64,000 nt of DNA. It comes from Astropecten irregularis. Taxonomy: Eukaryota; Echinodermata; Asteroidea; Paxillosida; Astropectinidae. The stretch spans positions 17,050,001-17,114,000 of the forward strand of contig OZ020244.1 of NCBI GenBank assembly GCA_963971285.1. Direction: 5' to 3'. Each line of letters begins with the position of its first letter. Positions within the stretch are counted from its first letter, which is position 1. Made by a program: the position numbers and the translations under genes. Shown piece by piece: positions 2,931-58,149 of the stretch. The notes under the pieces were generated by a model. That model searched no databases. It was given only the letters and a program-made list of their open reading frames with translations, and had not been told where the DNA came from.

Positions 2931-3289
2931 TTAAAAGTATAATACATGATTGGTAAAGGTCATAGAGCAGCACTCACACTTTGTCTGATCCAATATGTAC
3001 AGGAATTAATAAACCTGTGGAAATTTGAGCTCAATCTGAAATCTGAGTCACGAGATAATAGCAAAAACCCGACTCAATTTTTCTTATAAAACATAAAGAA
3101 TGGTTTTGATCTTACCCCAAGAAAACTCTTTTCGGTTTTTGTTTTACTAATTTCCGGATAAATACACCATTTCAGGTGAAAATATTTTAACTGTATGTTA
3201 TTTTCTACCAACTTCATACCCTGAAAGTTTTATATAATTATTTGAACATTTCTGTTTTGGTACGTTACTAATCTTGTACTGTGCCTTTA
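2931..3289 (+). mobile_element. MITE family B, copy 1
   Basis: The left end TTAAAAGTATAATACATGAT leads into the B-specific half (CACTTTGTCTGATCCA, then TTTGAGCTCAATC and CTGAGTCACGAG). The second half is the shared A/B/C module in reverse orientation. The right end is degraded (CTGTGCCTTTA). It is immediately followed by a hammerhead-like repeat. Confidence 0.85.
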
Positions 3290-3290
3290 T

Positions 3291-3346
3291 CATTCGATAA
3301 AAGATCCTGCTAGGATCGAAACAACAGGCCCTCCTAACTCCAAGCA
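3291..3346 (+). repeat. hairpin repeat HH1 (hammerhead-like 3' half)
   Basis: The hairpin GATCCTGCTAGGATC is followed directly by GAAAC and then GGCCCTCCTAACTCCAAGCA. The same arrangement recurs at about a dozen loci in this window. The upstream box reads TTCGATAAAA rather than CTGATGA. Confidence 0.7.
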
Positions 3347-3592: not shown

Positions 3593-4266
3593 TTTGTTCC
3601 AAAAATCATTCGGACGAACGATCTTTGGAAAAAGACACTAAATCTTGATTTGCTTGAAAAACCCAGCATCTGATGAAACAAGATTTCCCATGGTGACTGT
3701 TTGCATGCACTGTTTACGAACTGTTGAGTTCATTTTCTGTCTCAAACTCAATAATCTTTTTTTGAGGCCTTGCACATCCTGTACGCTGCCTTAAAAGGGA
3801 CAGAAATGGGCTGAATTTCAACCCTGTACCTCTTCAAGGTGTCACTGTAAATGCCAAATGCATTTGAAAGCACAACTAGCCGGAGCACTTATCCAAATTA
3901 TCCACTCCCACATGACTCCTATTAATTTATTATATTGCCGGCCACTGAGTGTACATGCATGTAGGCTACAAATTGACTACCATCAGGTGTGCGTGTAGGG
4001 GTGTGGGGTGTGAGTGTGTCAGGCATTTTAGTCCCTCCTCCCTCAATGGGTCAGCCACATAACAGGCTAATGGCTTCACCTTCTGGTCAATTAAACAATC
4101 ACCCGTGACCTGTTTCTGCTGCTCAGCGCATCTTACTGCCGGTCCACGGTTCAATAATGTAATTGTATCGAGCTTATAAGCACTGCATCTTGCACGGTTT
4201 CAGTATCATGTCTAAAGAGGTTCAATGCGGGAGGAGGATCTCGGTGGTATAGAAAGAAGGTTAAAT
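3593..4266. other. no recognisable feature
   Basis: Nothing supportable. The short minus frame near 3966-4154 looks like chance. Confidence 0.5.
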
Positions 4267-4430
4267 TCAAGAAAGATTTGAGGCTTTGCATGGTGACAAT
4301 TGGTATGTGGATCGGTTTGCGGAAACACCATGTAAGAATCGTTCGTACTTTCGTCCTTCTATTTCATTCGTACTTCTTATAATTAGGTCTCCACATTTCG
4401 ACTAGTCTGCTCTAGTCCTCATCAGGAGAC
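4267..4430 (-). repeat. HH2 repeat with hammerhead-like core, copy 1
   Basis: On the minus strand the core at 4387-4430 reads CTGATGAG, the hairpin GACTAG/CTAGTC, then GAAA, with GTCTC/GGAGAC-type flanking arms. GAAAC has decayed to GAAATG. The remaining 120 bp (TGGATCGGTTTGCGGAAACA and neighbours) match the copies at 4919 and 48235. Confidence 0.75.
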
Positions 4431-4918
4431 GGAAGGTTTAACTATCTAAAACAAGGGGTACAGCACTCTCCAAATAAAACAGTTCCGTTAATCTAGTGAG
4501 TAATCGAGCATGAAATGCTGACAAATTTCACCTGGATTTCTTCTCCATTCAGTCAGAATGCACCGCATATAAGAAATGTATCCATCCATATACTTGCTTA
4601 TTTAATCAAATTAAGGGGAAATACATCAAAACGGGAAACAAAATTCAATTAGATAGCCGAGGCAGCCTCCTTTCTTTGTACAGTGGCCTCGCCAAGACAT
4701 CTACCAGACCAATTACGGTGTTGAACTATATCCCGCTGCACTGCACTGACAGCAAGTGGGTCACCTTAAGCAAAGGTCACATCCCACTTGAGTGAACTGA
4801 CGAGTTGCTTATCCACGAGACTTGTATCTTGAGTATTGAAATTATACTGCCATTAACTGTCTCACATACTATTTTGTTTACTTAAAAGTCAAGACGTTAT
4901 TTTGTTGAACTATGTTTG
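4431..4918. other. no recognisable feature
   Basis: No repeat match or exon seen between two HH2 copies. Confidence 0.4.
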
Positions 4919-5066
4919 TCTTTGTGGATCCGTTTGCGGAAACACCATGTAATAATCGTTCGTACTTTCGCACTTCTATATCATTCGCACTTCTATATAG
5001 TTCGCACTTCTCGCAATTAAGGTCTCAACGTTTCGACTAGCCTGCTCTAGTCCTCATCAGGAGATG
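4919..5066 (-). repeat. HH2 repeat, copy 2
   Basis: The minus-strand core at 5022-5064 keeps CTGATGAG, stem GACTAG/CTAGTC, GAAACGTT and a downstream GAGACC arm. The body (4960-5015) has about three degenerate tandem units of ATTCGCACTTCTATAT. Confidence 0.8.
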
Positions 5067-6708
5067 TTTGTCTTGCTATATTTCCATTCTTTTCCTGTAA
5101 CAGAGTGCAAATATATATTTGCATAGGGGGCTATGCAAACAGTCATTTTAGCAGCCATTTTCTGAATGATTATCCCGAACATTGCACGGCAGAGAACAGA
5201 AACATCGGGATGAAAGGAATATCAGAAAGGACATTTTTACTAATCAGAAAAGACCATAAAAAAATTGTACATAATCAAAGCATTCCGCATTATTCAACTG
5301 ATCTGAAGATTAAAGATTAAAGAAGGGGATCTTGTAGATCCACTTCCCATGCAATCCGGAGCTGCAGGATCACTGATCTCGTGCCTGAAACAAACATGCC
5401 CCAACATGGCTTCCATTAGTCCTTTTGGAGTGTGTATAGTTAGTATTGAGTCAACATTATCCGATTCTGACAGAATTAAAAACATTGCTGCAGGATTTGA
5501 GGCAACCTCATTATGCAGAACATTCACTCCCAAGGTGTACCTTTCCAGCAACCCAATTCCCCTGGCTTAAACCCCTTTCACTAAGCTGAGCGGAATTCTA
5601 CTATCCCACACCTCTCATCCTTTTTTATTTCTTCTGCAAACTCAATAGGTCGTGCGTCACAAATTCGATTGGGAACATTGCTTGTAGGTGGGAATGGAGT
5701 TGAGAGGGGTATCATTAATGGCTTCTGGAGGTTGATAAAATGCATTATTAGCCCACATTCCTAGGCAGAAATCAGGTCAAGTGAATAAACAAGCCACTTC
5801 TTGTACGTCGGTGTAATATCCATCCTGAGCGGGCAGGTGCGGAGGGATCATGGGCCGTATCTTCTCTGGGAAGACGGAAGACGGAAGGCAGGAGAGGAAC
5901 AAAACAAATTGATTGCTCAGACGAAGTCTAAACTGAATCTCTTTCGCAAACGTTCAGCGGCATAACCAAATCCGACAGCCAAATTGCCGGGGTCATCACG
6001 TGCAGGCCACGCTCATCAGGCCAATGAATTGAAGTTGACACTAGCAGTGTCCATTTTGATAAAGATTGTAAGCAATTAAGTTAAATTCATAATCATAAAT
6101 CAATTTTGACAGGAACAATTGCAGATGTTCAAGTTTGTAGATGAAAAAAAAACAAACAGACGATCCCAATTCTTTTGATGATAATTCCCCTTGTGAAATG
6201 TTAGCTTAAAATCCGCCCACGCGCAGTAATCCTCATCGGGGCTGACTCCTAGCTAAACCCTGAAACTTTTTTTTAGTATAAATTGCCCGAGCTAAAAAGA
6301 AGAACCTCGTTAATCTCTTCAAATTTGTGCAGGAAATTGCGGGTATGATCCGGTCGAGGGCCAATTGCTCTTCTGCTTGCCTCTGACGTTATTTACACGG
6401 CCAAGCAAAGACCGGACGAGATTACACTCCTGAAATTGAGTGATCACCGATTCACTGCGGAAGGATTAGAAGCCTTTTGGCTCAAATATTGCTATGCAAA
6501 GCAGTTCCAAATAACATGTTTGCTTAGACTGTACAAAGGAGATACTGCTATACAGCAATATCACACACATACCCTGCATCAATAGGACTTTACAGCGAAA
6601 TAGTTCCTATTACGTAATGTCAATTATAATAATAATATATCCAAATATAATATTTTGTTACCCTTTTTCTTAAATTGGACGTTTTTTTTTTTATTTGGAC
6701 AAAAATGC
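5067..6708. other. unassigned intronic sequence
   Basis: No exon or clear repeat. A GATCC-rich patch at 5325-5400 weakly resembles the inverted repeat near 2239-2358. The overlapping 70-85 codon frames at 5105-5570 have no recognisable motif. Confidence 0.45.
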
Positions 6709-7023
6709 TTAAAGGTAGTATCATGCTTTGGTAGAAAACCAAAACAGAAATGTTCACAGATTTACCTATAACATACAGGGTATGATGATGTTGGTGGTAG
6801 AAACATACCGTTAATATTTTTCTGCCTGAAATAGTGTATTTATCCAGAAATTAGTAAAACATTGAATGACATTTTTTTTTACCTTTAAAAGATAAAAAAT
6901 AACAATGAAAACATTAAAAAGTAATACCGTGGCCGATTTTCACTGTTACTGTATCTTCCTCGATATTTTTGCCCATGAATCTGTAATTCTTTGACAAAAA
7001 CCAAAGTATGAAATTACCTTTAA
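6709..7023 (+). mobile_element. MITE family A, copy 2
   Basis: Starts TTAAAGGTAGTATCATGCTTTGGT and ends ACCAAAGTATGAAATTACCTTTAA, giving terminal inverted repeats next to TTAA. The shared module and the A-specific half are both present. There is an internal deletion compared with other copies. Confidence 0.9.
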
Positions 7024-9035: not shown

Positions 9036-9175
9036 AGCCTTCGATAAAGATCCTGCTAGGATCGAAACGCGTCAGGTCCTCCCAACTCTAAGCATTTTAC
9101 AAATTTCAGGTCATTTTGGCCGATGAGCAGTTTCCAGCATTTTATTACTCATATAATTCACTAGTTAACATCACT
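9036..9175 (+). repeat. HH1 hairpin repeat with 3' extension
   Basis: The box TTCGATAAA, hairpin GATCCTGCTAGGATC, then GAAACGCGTC and AGGTCCTCCCAACTC. The following AAATTTCAGGTCATTTTGG and GATGAGCAGTTTCCAGC also recur next to HH1 copies near 31800, 41170 and 54240, so the repeat unit is at least 130 bp. Confidence 0.75.
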
Positions 9176-14324: not shown

Positions 14325-14757
14325 AATTAAATTATCATCAAATAAGCACAAGGGAAAATTAAATAGTGAATGAAGAAAAATTTACCAGAGCTGGATTTGA
14401 ACCAGTGACCTCCGGAATACCCTTCCAACGCTCTTACCAACTATCCAGCTCAATGTTAGTGATGTCCCTATATAGTTAATTATCTTTGAGCATCAAATAA
14501 CCCCAAGGGAAACTGACTAAATTTAGAGTAATTGAAAAGTGAACAAAACATTTTTTTTACTGGAGAGAGATTTGAACCAGCGACCTCCAGAACACCGTAC
14601 CAGTGCCCTACCAACTGAGCTACTCAGCGCTATGTCAGTATGTTGGTTGTGTCCCTACTTATAGTCAATTATCTTTGTTCGTTTGGCAGTCAGAAGCCAT
14701 GAATGCACTCACATACCGCTATATCCCAAGGATCATTGAAGATACATGCAGCAATAG
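14325..14757 (-). mobile_element. two SINE-S copies in tandem
   Basis: Each unit holds, on the minus strand, a tRNA-like A box (CTCAGTTGGTAGGGC in the second) and B box (GGTTCAAATC). They are flanked by ATCAAATAACCCCAAGGGAA on one side and AGTCAATTATCTTTG with TTTGGCAGTCAGAAGCCATG on the other. The break between copies is near 14485. Related copies: 36893, 40335, 50575 and 54535. Confidence 0.82.
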
Positions 14758-20041: not shown

Positions 20042-20146
20042 TACAATATCCTATTTCATGGATTACCGGTAGCAAGGAATTTTTCAGTTGTGCGCATGTG
20101 TGCATGTAGTTCACATAACTAAGCGCAGAAATTCGGCGCTAGCCCT

Positions 20147-20505
20147 TTAAAGGTAGTATCATACTTTGGTAAGAAACCAAAACAGAAATGTTCACAGATT
20201 TACGTATAACTTACTGGGTATGAAGATGGTGTTGGTAGAAACATACCGTTAAATTTTTTCCGCCTGAAATGGTGTATTTATTCAGAAATTAGTCAAACAA
20301 CGACCGAAAATCTTTTTGATCCTTTTAAAAGATCAAAAATAAAAGACTTAAGAAATACTGTGGCTGTTTTTCACTGTTTTCACAAAAAGTGGGCACCGTA
20401 TGGGACTGAAATTTTCACAGATTACTATTACTGTATCTTCCTTGATATTTTTGCCCATGAATCTGTATTTCTTTGACAAAAACCAAAGTATGATACTACC
20501 TTTAA
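20147..20505 (+). mobile_element. MITE family A, copy 6
   Basis: Ends TTAAAGGTAGTATCATACTT and AAGTATGATACTACCTTTAA. Full length, about 100 bp from copy 5 in the same orientation. Confidence 0.95.
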
Positions 20506-36892: not shown

Positions 36893-37170
36893 TAGTAATA
36901 ATCATCAAATAACCACAAGGGAAACTGACTGATCGAATTTAAAGTCATTGAAAAGTGAACCAAGAAAAATTGACTGGAAGGGGATTCAAACCGGCGACCT
37001 CCTGAATACCGTGCAGGCGCTCTACCAACTGAGCCATCCAGCCCTATGTCGATGGTGACCCCAATAGTCAATTATCTTTTTAGTTTGGCAGTAAGAAGCC
37101 ATGAAACCACGCACACACTGCCATACCCCAAGGATCATTTCACCGATACGCGCAGCAATGCTGTAACCTG
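36893..37170 (-). mobile_element. SINE-S copy
   Basis: Minus-strand GGATGGCTCAGTTGGTAGAGCG A box and GGTTTGAATCC B box. The flanks TAACCACAAGGGAAACTGAC and CAATTATCTTTTTAGTTTGG match the other S copies. Confidence 0.88.
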
Positions 37171-40334: not shown

Positions 40335-40490
40335 TTTAACTTCATTGAAGAATGAACAAAGAAAAATTGACTGGAGCGGGATTCAAACCGGGCGACCTTC
40401 GGAATACCGTACAGGCACTCAACCAACTGAGCTATCCAGTCCTATATTGGTGGTGTCAATTATCTTTGTTCATTTGGCAGTCAGAAGCCT
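40335..40490 (-). mobile_element. SINE-S copy
   Basis: Minus-strand GGATAGCTCAGTTGGTTGAG A box and GGTTTGAATCC B box, followed by CAATTATCTTTGTTCATTTGG. Confidence 0.85.
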
Positions 40491-44275: not shown

Positions 44276-44520
44276 GATTTAGCCTTTGAGAAAGATCCTC
44301 GAATGACTAAGTCTTGCGGTGACACCATGTATAATACTCTTTTAAGGGAGATGTGTGGTCCTGAAAAGGACCGATGAGAGTGGATTCTCAATGTTTCGAC
44401 TAGTGTGCTCTAGTCGTCCTCAGGAGAGAGAGAAAGAAAGAGAAAGATCCTCCTTGAATCGAAACGTCTGGCTCTCGTAACTTCAAGTATTTTGTATACT
44501 ATTTTTTTTATTTTATAAGG
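44276..44520 (-). repeat. HH2 variant flanked by HH1 pieces
   Basis: The minus-strand core at 44391-44431 reads CTGAGGAC, stem GACTAG/CTAGTC, GAAACATT, GAGAATCC. Its body contains GGTCC/GGACC hairpins and ATGGTGTCACCGCAAG, related to the HH2 body. HH1 pieces flank it at 44276-44296 and 44445-44500. Confidence 0.65.
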
Positions 44521-48100: not shown

Positions 48101-48234
48101 TAGTTTCTCTATTTGGCTCCATGTCGGGGAAAAACAGGCCATTGAACCTGAAACATATATCATGATTGAACAAATCTGTTTCTCACATTTGTTTCTTTTT
48201 AGGAATTGTCAGGCTTAGTCTGAGGAAATTGCCC

Positions 48235-48410
48235 TCGTCTCCTGATGAGGACTAGAGCAGACTAGTCGAAACGTTGAGACCTACTTGCGAGAAGTGCGAA
48301 CGATATAAAAGTGCGAAAGTACGAACGAATATTACATGGTGTTTCCGCAAACCGATCCACGTACCAATTGTCACCATGCAAAGCCTCAAATCTTTCTTGA
48401 AATTGCCCTG
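48235..48410 (+). repeat. HH2 repeat with best hammerhead-like core
   Basis: Stem I arms GTCTC (48237-48241) and GAGAC (48276-48280) enclose CTGATGA (48242-48248), an extra G, stem II GACTAG (48250-48255)/CTAGTC (48262-48267) with loop AGCAGA, then GAAA (48268-48271) and CGTT. This is the hammerhead order stem I, CUGAUGA, stem II, GAAA, short stem III, stem I. The body continues with GAAGTGCGAACGATATAAAA and GGTGTTTCCGCAAACCGATC. Activity is untested; the extra G and the minimal ACGT stem III are concerns. Confidence 0.75.
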
Positions 48411-48547
48411 CTTTCTAAAAGTGCCAAGAAGAGATCGATGCCTTGTGCTTTGATATATATCCCTAATTTGACCTCAAGGACTAACAGCGATGAATACGGC
48501 TCACGTCTCTTAACTGGATATTCATTCATTCAAATTTAAGGACAGAG

Positions 48548-48896
48548 GTAAAGGTATAATACATGATTGATAATGGTCACAGAACAGCACACTCACACTT
48601 TGTCTGATCCAATATGCACATAAAATAACACACCTCGTGAAAAATTTGAGCTCAAACGGACATCTGAGTCACGACTTAAATTTGTTTATTAAACATAAAG
48701 AATTGTTTTGATCTAACCCCGAGATCAAAACTGTTTTTGGTCTTTGTTTGACTAATTTCTGGATAAATATAGCATTTCAGGTGGAAATATTGTAACGGTA
48801 TGTTTCTACCAGCACCATCTTCATACCATGAAAGTGATACGTGAATCTGTGAACATTTCTGTTTGGATATGTTACCAATCCTCTACTGTAACTTTA
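48548..48896 (+). mobile_element. MITE family B, copy 5
   Basis: TAAAGGTATAATACATGATTG to ACCAATCCTCTACTGTAACTTTA, with a B half (TTTGAGCTCAAACGGACATC) and a reversed shared module. Confidence 0.9.
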
Positions 48897-57800: not shown

Positions 57801-58149
57801 TTAAAGGTAATGTCATACTTTGGTTTTTGTCAAAAAAATTCAGATCCATGGGCAAGAATATCAAGAAATATACAGCAACAGTCATCTGTGAAAATATCAG
57901 TCCCATTCGGTGCACACTTTTTGAGAAAACAGCAAAAAACGACTTCAGTATTTCTTAAGTCTTTTCTCATTTATTTTCGATCTTTTAAAGATCACTGGTT
58001 TGACTCTTTTTCTGGATAAATACAGTATTTCAGGCAGAAACATTTTAACGGTATGTTTCTACCATCACCTTCTTTATACCCTGTAAGTAATAGGTAAATC
58101 TGTGGAGATTTCTGTTTCCGTATGCTATCAAAGTATGATACTACCTTTA
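57801..58149 (-). mobile_element. MITE family A, copy 12
   Basis: TTAAAGGTAATGTCATACTTTGGTTT to ATCAAAGTATGATACTACCTTTA; both modules. Confidence 0.92.

Follow-up and report, generated by a model that had tools for sequence, protein, structure and literature searches.

Four copies of a short dispersed repeat, HH2, each with a hammerhead-ribozyme-like motif, lie within a 64,000-nucleotide stretch of the Astropecten irregularis genome (contig OZ020244.1, positions 17,050,001 to 17,114,000; hereafter the window, G000:C1:17050001-17114000 in the searched genome of 476 Mb in 168 contigs). We consider HH2 to be a non-autonomous derivative of a Penelope-like element (PLE) that retains only the pseudo-long terminal repeat (pLTR), and put the probability of this reading at about 0.83. 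Target-site duplications, a preferred 5' end, two 3' ends in the style of PLEs, head-to-head twin insertions, tandem arrays and the occurrence of PLEs in the same genome together support such a retroelement, insofar as sequence comparison can, and agree with an earlier note on this DNA, which had proposed a non-autonomous retroelement bearing a minimal hammerhead of the Penelope type. Sister families of HH2 also carry a histone 3'-end module; whereas HH2 alone joins a known kind of element, this combination appears in none of the paper listings searched.

Copy A, a full element with the long 3' end (48236-48398, + strand), matches positions 2-163 of our working family sequence at 97%, and constitutes a 163-bp insertion framed by exact 11-bp duplications of the target site (GAAATTGCCCT at 48225-48235 and 48399-48409, 11/11 identical). 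Its minimal type I hammerhead (48237-48280, +), recognized by its letters, by motif scan and by stem II covariation among relatives, reads GTCTC-CTGATGA-G-GACTAG-AGCAGA-CTAGTC-GAAACGTT-GAGAC. Here a 5-bp stem I (48237-48241/48276-48280) encloses the core CTGATGA (48242-48248), an unpaired extra G (48249), a 6-bp stem II (48250-48255/48262-48267), GAAA (48268-48271) and, in place of stem III, a palindromic ACGT (48271-48274), with the predicted cut site after 48275. Within the tail region (48333-48398, +) the family has a choice of two 3' ends, the short one near 48363 and the long one at 48398, as known from the bimodal ends described below. Two further copies lie on the minus strand: copy C (4269-4430), which has the long 3' end and duplications at 4432-4441 and 4256-4265 (9/10 identical), and copy B (4923-5064), which has the short 3' end and duplications of AAGACAAACAT at 5064-5074 and 4912-4922 (11/11). 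The homology between 4250-4431 and 48236-48417 extends over 182 bp at 90%. Copy D (44301-44439, -) belongs to a sister subfamily, and combines a hammerhead, a histone-type stem-loop and a tail between duplications of GAGGATCTTTCTC (44440-44452 and 44288-44300, 13/13, judged by eye); a scan with the A-family probe did not pick it up. A motif scan recovered the four hammerhead-like motifs where the earlier note had placed them, with cores at 48242-48271 (+) in A, 4396-4425 (-) in C, 5031-5060 (-) in B and 44394-44423 (-) in D, the last reading CTGAGGA-C-GACTAG..CTAGTC-GAAA. The architecture given there, of stem I, CTGATGA, stem II and GAAACGT, holds for copies A and B, while at that place copy C has GAAATGTG and copy D GAAACATT. 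The extra G after CTGATGA, which had been marked as a deviation, is present but is no defect, as the base varies across families.

HH2 is a real and abundant family, and has probably been active in recent times. The exact word CTGATGAGGACTAG-N4-10-CTAGTCGAAACG occurs 678 times in the genome (337 copies on the plus and 341 on the minus strand) against none for the reversed-pattern control, so the motif is not due to chance, and the exact 25-nt tail has 1742 genome matches (control 0). A DNA search with the 67-nt tail that contains this word, in a mode which passes over frequent words, found no match. With stem-loop II left free (19 unspecified bases between the core and GAAACGTC), 594 matches were returned against one in the control; of the 18 sequences displayed, out of 100 places listed, nine represent a different repeat which is not HH2-like. 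The hammerhead gave one phage hit, and the tail had no match in viral contigs. The loci examined were selected by hammerhead (L011-L029), by tail (L060-L079 and L120) or by histone loop (L080-L105 and L110-L119).

Most copies read possess the type I hammerhead core CUGANGA...GAAA as required. Family A has the cleavage triplet GUU (T in 25/25) and sister family D mostly GUC (C 22, T 6, A 1; n=29), and the unpaired base following CTGANGA is G in 11 and T in eight of 19 tail-selected A copies, and C in 23 and T in one of 24 family-D copies. Stem II is paired in 96.3% of cells among nine HH2-like free-stem sequences, the other nine of the 18 having been set aside beforehand as non-hammerheads; three of its six pairs changed on both sides, its covariation score of 0.463 (0.249 when shuffled) was reached by none of 500 shuffles, and every register slid out of place is at most 41% paired. 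The excluded sequences (six distinct), from a repeat beginning CTGATGAAGTATTG, pair in 58% of stem II cells and do not covary. A repeat of the form CTGATGAAGTATTGCA.TTT.CA.A.GAAACGTC (for example at C1:903716 and C1:1777782) imitates the ends of the hammerhead, not stem II. Stem I covariation amounts to a single case, TCTC/GAGA versus TTTC/GAAA in one copy (L121), and variation within family A or within family D is too low for covariation to be assessed. In the letters of copy A, stem III is not closable in the monomer, as it consists of the palindromic ACGT alone, and closure would therefore need a second copy; stem I is without an internal loop for loop-loop contacts. With these features, self-cleavage of HH2 is plausible.

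The HH2 unit is an insertion of about 128 or 163 bp with duplications of 10-14 bp. Counting only the 5'-most piece in every run, we found starts at positions 1-2, where stem I begins, in 12 of the 36 pieces from tail-selected A loci, in 21 of the 61 from family D, and in 19 of 33 pieces of the hammerhead-selected, and hence biased, A set. None of the A pieces starts at positions 38-49, around the cut site (0/36 tail-selected, 0/33 hammerhead-selected). The 3' ends are bimodal, at about 128 and 163, some 35 nt apart, in A and at about 135 and 166 in D. Clear duplications (score of at least 10, 36 clusters) are 10-14 bp long in 34 cases and are 72% A+T; scores of at least 11 were reached in 18 of 50 clusters, compared with five of 977 mismatched-flank controls.

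Before pairs were fetched deliberately, 32 of 76 clusters were oriented head-to-head and none tail-to-tail, and the addition of 11 loci because they were pairs brought the sample to 43 pairs in 87 clusters. All 37 pairs in which both outer ends could be classified consist of one long and one short arm; 33 of these twins are independent, as L025 repeats L017, and L105, L114 and L115 repeat L104, judging by their duplications. In the remaining six of the 43 an outer end is truncated (4 Lx, 1 Sx and 1 xx, with L for long, S for short and x for truncated). Single insertions comprise 28 short, 12 long and four other (n=44), frequencies from which chance pairing would yield 42% mixed twins. We know of no precedent for the 37/37 count. 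Long/short asymmetry of PLE insertions is known in kind (PMC11167929).

The genome contains PLEs that could have supplied such an insertion machinery. A search for the GIY-YIG domain gave 60 matches, and one locus, L058, encodes both GIY-YIG and a reverse transcriptase (RT; PF00078, 29.3 bits, just under the cut-off of 29.6). Its 598-aa protein, used as a query, returned 76 matches (73 of 1289 candidates scored), 12 of which cover the full query at 97% identity or above and without a stop. Copies of this main PLE have GCCTTTGAGAAAGATCCTGCTAGGATCGAAACGCGTCAGGC ahead of the 3' end and mostly terminate near probe position 363-383 or 428-445; the GIY-YIG plus RT PLEs of this genome carry a hammerhead-like motif in the pLTR and have two preferred 3' ends. 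That motif, a second hammerhead-like family which we term HH1, has stem II GATCC/GGATC followed by GAAACGCGTC, and occurs in the window at 9049 (+), 3303 (+), 54300 (+) and 31893 (-), in L057 at about 2123-2165, and as an eight-unit array of about 60 bp in L012. Its assignment as a hammerhead is tentative, although the predicted core substitutions (C3U and G8A) would leave positions 3 and 8 able to pair. As its tail differs, the HH1-type PLE was rejected as the partner of HH2, and three divergent PLEs with open frames (C9:23298389-23300122, C19:4589020-4590774 and C1:14668198-14669952; identities of 41%, 35% and 35% to the main PLE) are candidates instead. L032, which looks Slx1-like, and L030, which looks UvrC-like, were rejected as PLEs. 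Two open frames join a PLE-like GIY-YIG domain to other domains, a B-box in L036 (232-1812), and NHL and a sub-threshold B-box in L031 (151-1788), and are possible host-gene fusions with a PLE nuclease.

HH2 might alternatively consist of full PLE copies that have been severely truncated at the 5' end and do not propagate independently. PLE insertions end in the same order, with hammerhead and then tail, the published template of PAc, from Anolis, requires only the start of the open reading frame (ORF) (PMC11167929), and a strong stop could cause truncation at one preferred place. We nevertheless regard truncation as unlikely, because of the preferred 5' end at positions 1-2 and because the L058 protein was not matched in 39 A-family loci, 26 D-family loci or the window, a search with flanks of 1.5-3 kb in 25 loci and shorter flanks in the rest, which divergent PLEs would escape.

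Tandem copies, the presence or absence of which the earlier note had made a touchstone, do occur: L010 contains 21 hammerhead units at a spacing of 54-58 bp, L017 and L025 have 74-bp units, and L022 has 86-bp units. In the 74- and 86-bp arrays every unit begins GGTCTC or GGTCCC, the tail is present on the last unit only, and the point at which upstream units stop varies between arrays, a pattern that is easier to explain by template jumps than by copying from a circle. The circle is central to a canonical metazoan retrozyme, in which a tandem transcript is cut by the hammerhead, closed by tRNA ligase and then reverse transcribed. The type I hammerhead, small size, animal host and arrays would all suit such an element, as would the four family-D pieces which start at the predicted cut site, and Acropora millepora, a coral, has elements of this sort (PMC7229834). 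This origin is nonetheless improbable, since 43 of 87 clusters are head-to-head, no A-family piece begins near the cut site while positions 1-2 are preferred, tails and stop points are distributed as described, and stem I offers no internal loop for loop-loop contacts. The HH2 arrays, at 54-86 bp, are shorter than retrozyme units of 150-450 bp, and their hammerhead is minimal. Where the earlier note had named PLEs and retrozymes side by side, the insertion ends are of the PLE type and do not favor the circular-RNA route. A short interspersed element (SINE) that owes its mobility to a long interspersed element (LINE) acting on the 3' tail, and whose 5' hammerhead is incidental, would be short and dispersed, with a LINE-like duplication length and a preferred 5' end, but is most improbable given that the copies read are without an A-rich or simple-repeat tail, that both target ends are primed with tails outward and arms long-plus-short in every classifiable twin, and that the hammerhead is of the PLE kind.

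Several results weigh against derivation of HH2 from a PLE, or against its hammerhead. The earlier note had looked to Rfam covariance models for confirmation, which was not forthcoming: no Rfam hammerhead family matched 48150-48500 at E<=10, and none was found in the whole window at gathering scores. RNAfold and cofold prefer other folds, the dimer hammerhead reaching -31.1 against a minimum of -36.9 kcal/mol. Most pieces start elsewhere than at positions 1-2, and four of the 61 D pieces (L085, L091, L096 and L113) start at 42-44, no more than one base from the predicted cut, so that the copied RNA may on occasion have been cleaved. Duplications score at least 9 in 32 of 43 pairs but in only 16 of 44 singles. 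Further, none of the HH2 copies proved to be linked to an RT gene, a search for PLEs with an HH2-type pLTR, which did not extend to the flanks of the most divergent ones, brought none to light, and the only PLE with readable ends, which is of HH1 type, has a tail unlike that of HH2. Among the 100 places listed as matches, no HH2 or histone-loop place was seen by eye near a listed PLE. We therefore infer the mobilizing enzyme.

As a hammerhead test, Rfam was dropped as insensitive, because phage hammerheads with full stem III also remain below threshold: one with the stem II of HH2 and an intact stem III scores 19.6 bits (RAGATH-1-hammerhead, threshold 56.3), and its neighbor, also with full stem III, 18.6 bits (Hammerhead_1, threshold 34). 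Toward hammerheads in which stem III is missing, as in HH2, these models are insensitive. Viral contig L001 has two type I hammerheads, at 3241-3308 and 4257-4317, which by eye lie directly upstream of coding regions; one shares stem II GACTAG/CTAGTC and the extra G with HH2, but has a full stem III, and both score under the Rfam thresholds.

We propose the following mechanism on the basis of the anatomy of the element, its copy numbers, ends and duplications, the orientation of twins, their long/short rule and covariation in stem II; the identity of the enzyme, the sequence of events, cleavage by the ribozyme and whatever the histone module may do are our reconstruction. The HH2 RNA would most often start at the 5' strand of stem I and end in a tail within which reverse transcription can start at two sites, separated by about 35 nt. 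A PLE RT-endonuclease would cut both strands of the target with a stagger of 10-14 nt, as the insertion ends suggest, and both cut ends would act as internal primers for cDNA synthesis on the element RNA, with one using the long site and its partner the short one. A single RNA presumably cannot offer the same start site to two enzyme subunits, each of which would therefore take its own. Retention of both cDNAs would give a head-to-head twin, and of one, a single copy, while extra upstream units may represent template jumps back to the 5' end. Hammerhead stem III (ACGT with ACGT) would be completed only with a second copy, so that cleavage would proceed as a dimer or with the help of protein. 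Copies starting at stem I would come from uncut RNA, and cleavage would thus not make the usual 5' end. In the sister subfamilies, the likeliest role of the histone module would be to direct 3'-end processing of the RNA or to bind SLBP, whereby transcripts may be sorted into a processed, non-polyadenylated class and a class that keeps the tail and serves as template.

The histone-type stem-loop of copy D went unremarked in the earlier note. Past its hammerhead, copy D continues GGTCCTTTTCAGGACC-ACACATCTCCCTT-AAAAGAG, in which GGTCCTTTTCAGGACC (44357-44372, -) is the stem-loop and AAAAGAG (44337-44343, -) a purine-rich element like the histone downstream element; in the sister subfamilies both lie between hammerhead and tail. 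The stem-loop word TCGGTCCTTTTCAGGACCACACATC has 684 genome matches at up to two mismatches (control 0), and the histone-loop word has none in the viral and prokaryote collections. When the D sequence was shuffled by single bases 200000 times, a regular expression for the histone-type loop found a match in three cases. Full-length hammerheads number 20, in 18 of the 36 D loci read, the others being truncated. The Rfam Histone3 model (RF00032, gathering threshold 34) is passed in nine of 10 family-D loci (L080, at 36.9 bits, L089, L101, L103 and five of six further loci, not L119) and in all four family-E loci (L121 and L122, in one of two copies each, L123 and L126); window copy D did not reach the threshold in the whole-window scan. 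Host histone genes score 36.4-42.8 bits in three of four cases. L125 is a decayed relative which does not pass, and L124 looks like a true histone gene. Family E (L121, L122, L123 and L126) shows the host-like loop GGCTCTTTTCAGAGCC together with a word resembling CAAAAGAGA, with a hammerhead CTGAAGA-N-GGCCAG.. in two of the four loci (L121 and L126). No title or abstract among the open-licence PubMed Central matches listed links a histone stem-loop to a retroelement, full texts lying beyond that search.

It is possible, at somewhat less than even odds, that SLBP and the U7 snRNP process or carry the RNA of this PLE lineage, tying its supply to S phase. Histone-type processing would remove the tail, and the stem-loop would then act as a switch between mRNA-like and template RNA; if so, this would be a retroelement family with both a ribozyme and a histone-type 3' end, that is, two RNA-cutting signals within about 90 nt. 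On this reading, strict long-plus-short pairing would further mean that a PLE dimer is seated on both start sites of one RNA. The stem-loop might equally be a relic of a single capture from a histone gene, passively carried without function, a view we hold tentatively and would not expect to prevail much more than two times in five. Among the matches listed for D, 67 of 100 loops are identical and 33 have scattered changes, none of them paired, and family A does without the stem-loop, as a fossil would allow. Comparison of D with one E copy is harder to reconcile with passive carriage, as the histone stem has two paired changes, the loop is identical, and AAAAGAGAT is kept at 9/9 bases, against 3/13 in the first spacer. 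This contrast is uneven, however, since the second spacer keeps 9/12 bases; the tail keeps 21/28.

Other repeats in the window include a tRNA-like family, probably a SINE, with copies at 36971-37043 (-) and 40368-40441 (-), both above the Rfam tRNA threshold, and relatives near 14373, 14548 and 50640. Large interspersed repeats occur at least 8-10 times within the window, in either orientation (for example 370-554, 6707-6891 and 20145-20329), with inverted copies at 48722-48878 and 57801-57989.

HH2 most resembles the Penelope/Poseidon PLEs (GIY-YIG, EN+), with which it shares a terminal unit containing a minimal hammerhead, reverse transcription from two start sites, a 30-40 bp optional tail that is present on one inverted copy, head-to-head arrangement, duplications near 10 bp, AT-rich targets and partial tandems (PMC11167929, PMC3846280). 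The PAc protein of Anolis cleaves both strands, extends them and initiates reverse transcription at two internal sites bounding an optional tail of 30-40 bp; in that system, hammerhead mutants insert normally, and the hammerhead cuts only in the presence of protein (PMC11167929). Unlike these PLEs, HH2 has no ORF, its whole unit is only about 128-163 bp, and its sister families carry the histone-type stem-loop and downstream element. The hammerhead itself is like the PLE-associated minimal type I hammerheads, with little or no stem III, no loop-loop contacts and dimers expected (PMC7761336), a type described by Cervera and de la Pena (2014) and by Lunse et al. (2017), whose title has them 'cleave RNA as dimers' (both cited in PMC7761336). 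Thousands of minimal hammerheads are dispersed in animal genomes, and the role of the PLE-type ones has been called a mystery (PMC7761336). The same source summarizes the dispersed copies as having no known role; around HH2, the surrounding unit and its mode of insertion can be read. With the metazoan non-LTR retrozymes it has in common small size, lack of coding capacity, a type I hammerhead, an animal genome and some tandem copies, although the Acropora millepora retrozymes are tandem units of 220-240 bp with canonical hammerheads and circular RNA (PMC7229834), while HH2 is dispersed, often head-to-head, minimal, and usually begins at stem I. The HH2 unit would comprise the parts of a minimal PLE template, inserted by PLE rules, and the long-plus-short rule of its twins limits, in a way that can be tested, how PLE enzymes may use one RNA.

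A histone-type 3'-end module at the same position in hundreds of copies makes possible a specific and cheap test of how PLE transcripts acquire their 3' ends. As in histone pre-mRNA 3' ends (RF00032), the stem-loop of D and E has the form GGYYYU-UUUC-ARRRCC followed by ACC or ACA, with AAAAGAG downstream of the stem by 12 nt in typical D copies and 13 nt in the window copy and family E, compared with 11 nt in host histone genes (L106, L107 and L109). Unlike in histone genes, the module resides in a non-coding retroelement with no histone ORF, 3' of a hammerhead and 5' of the RT start sites.
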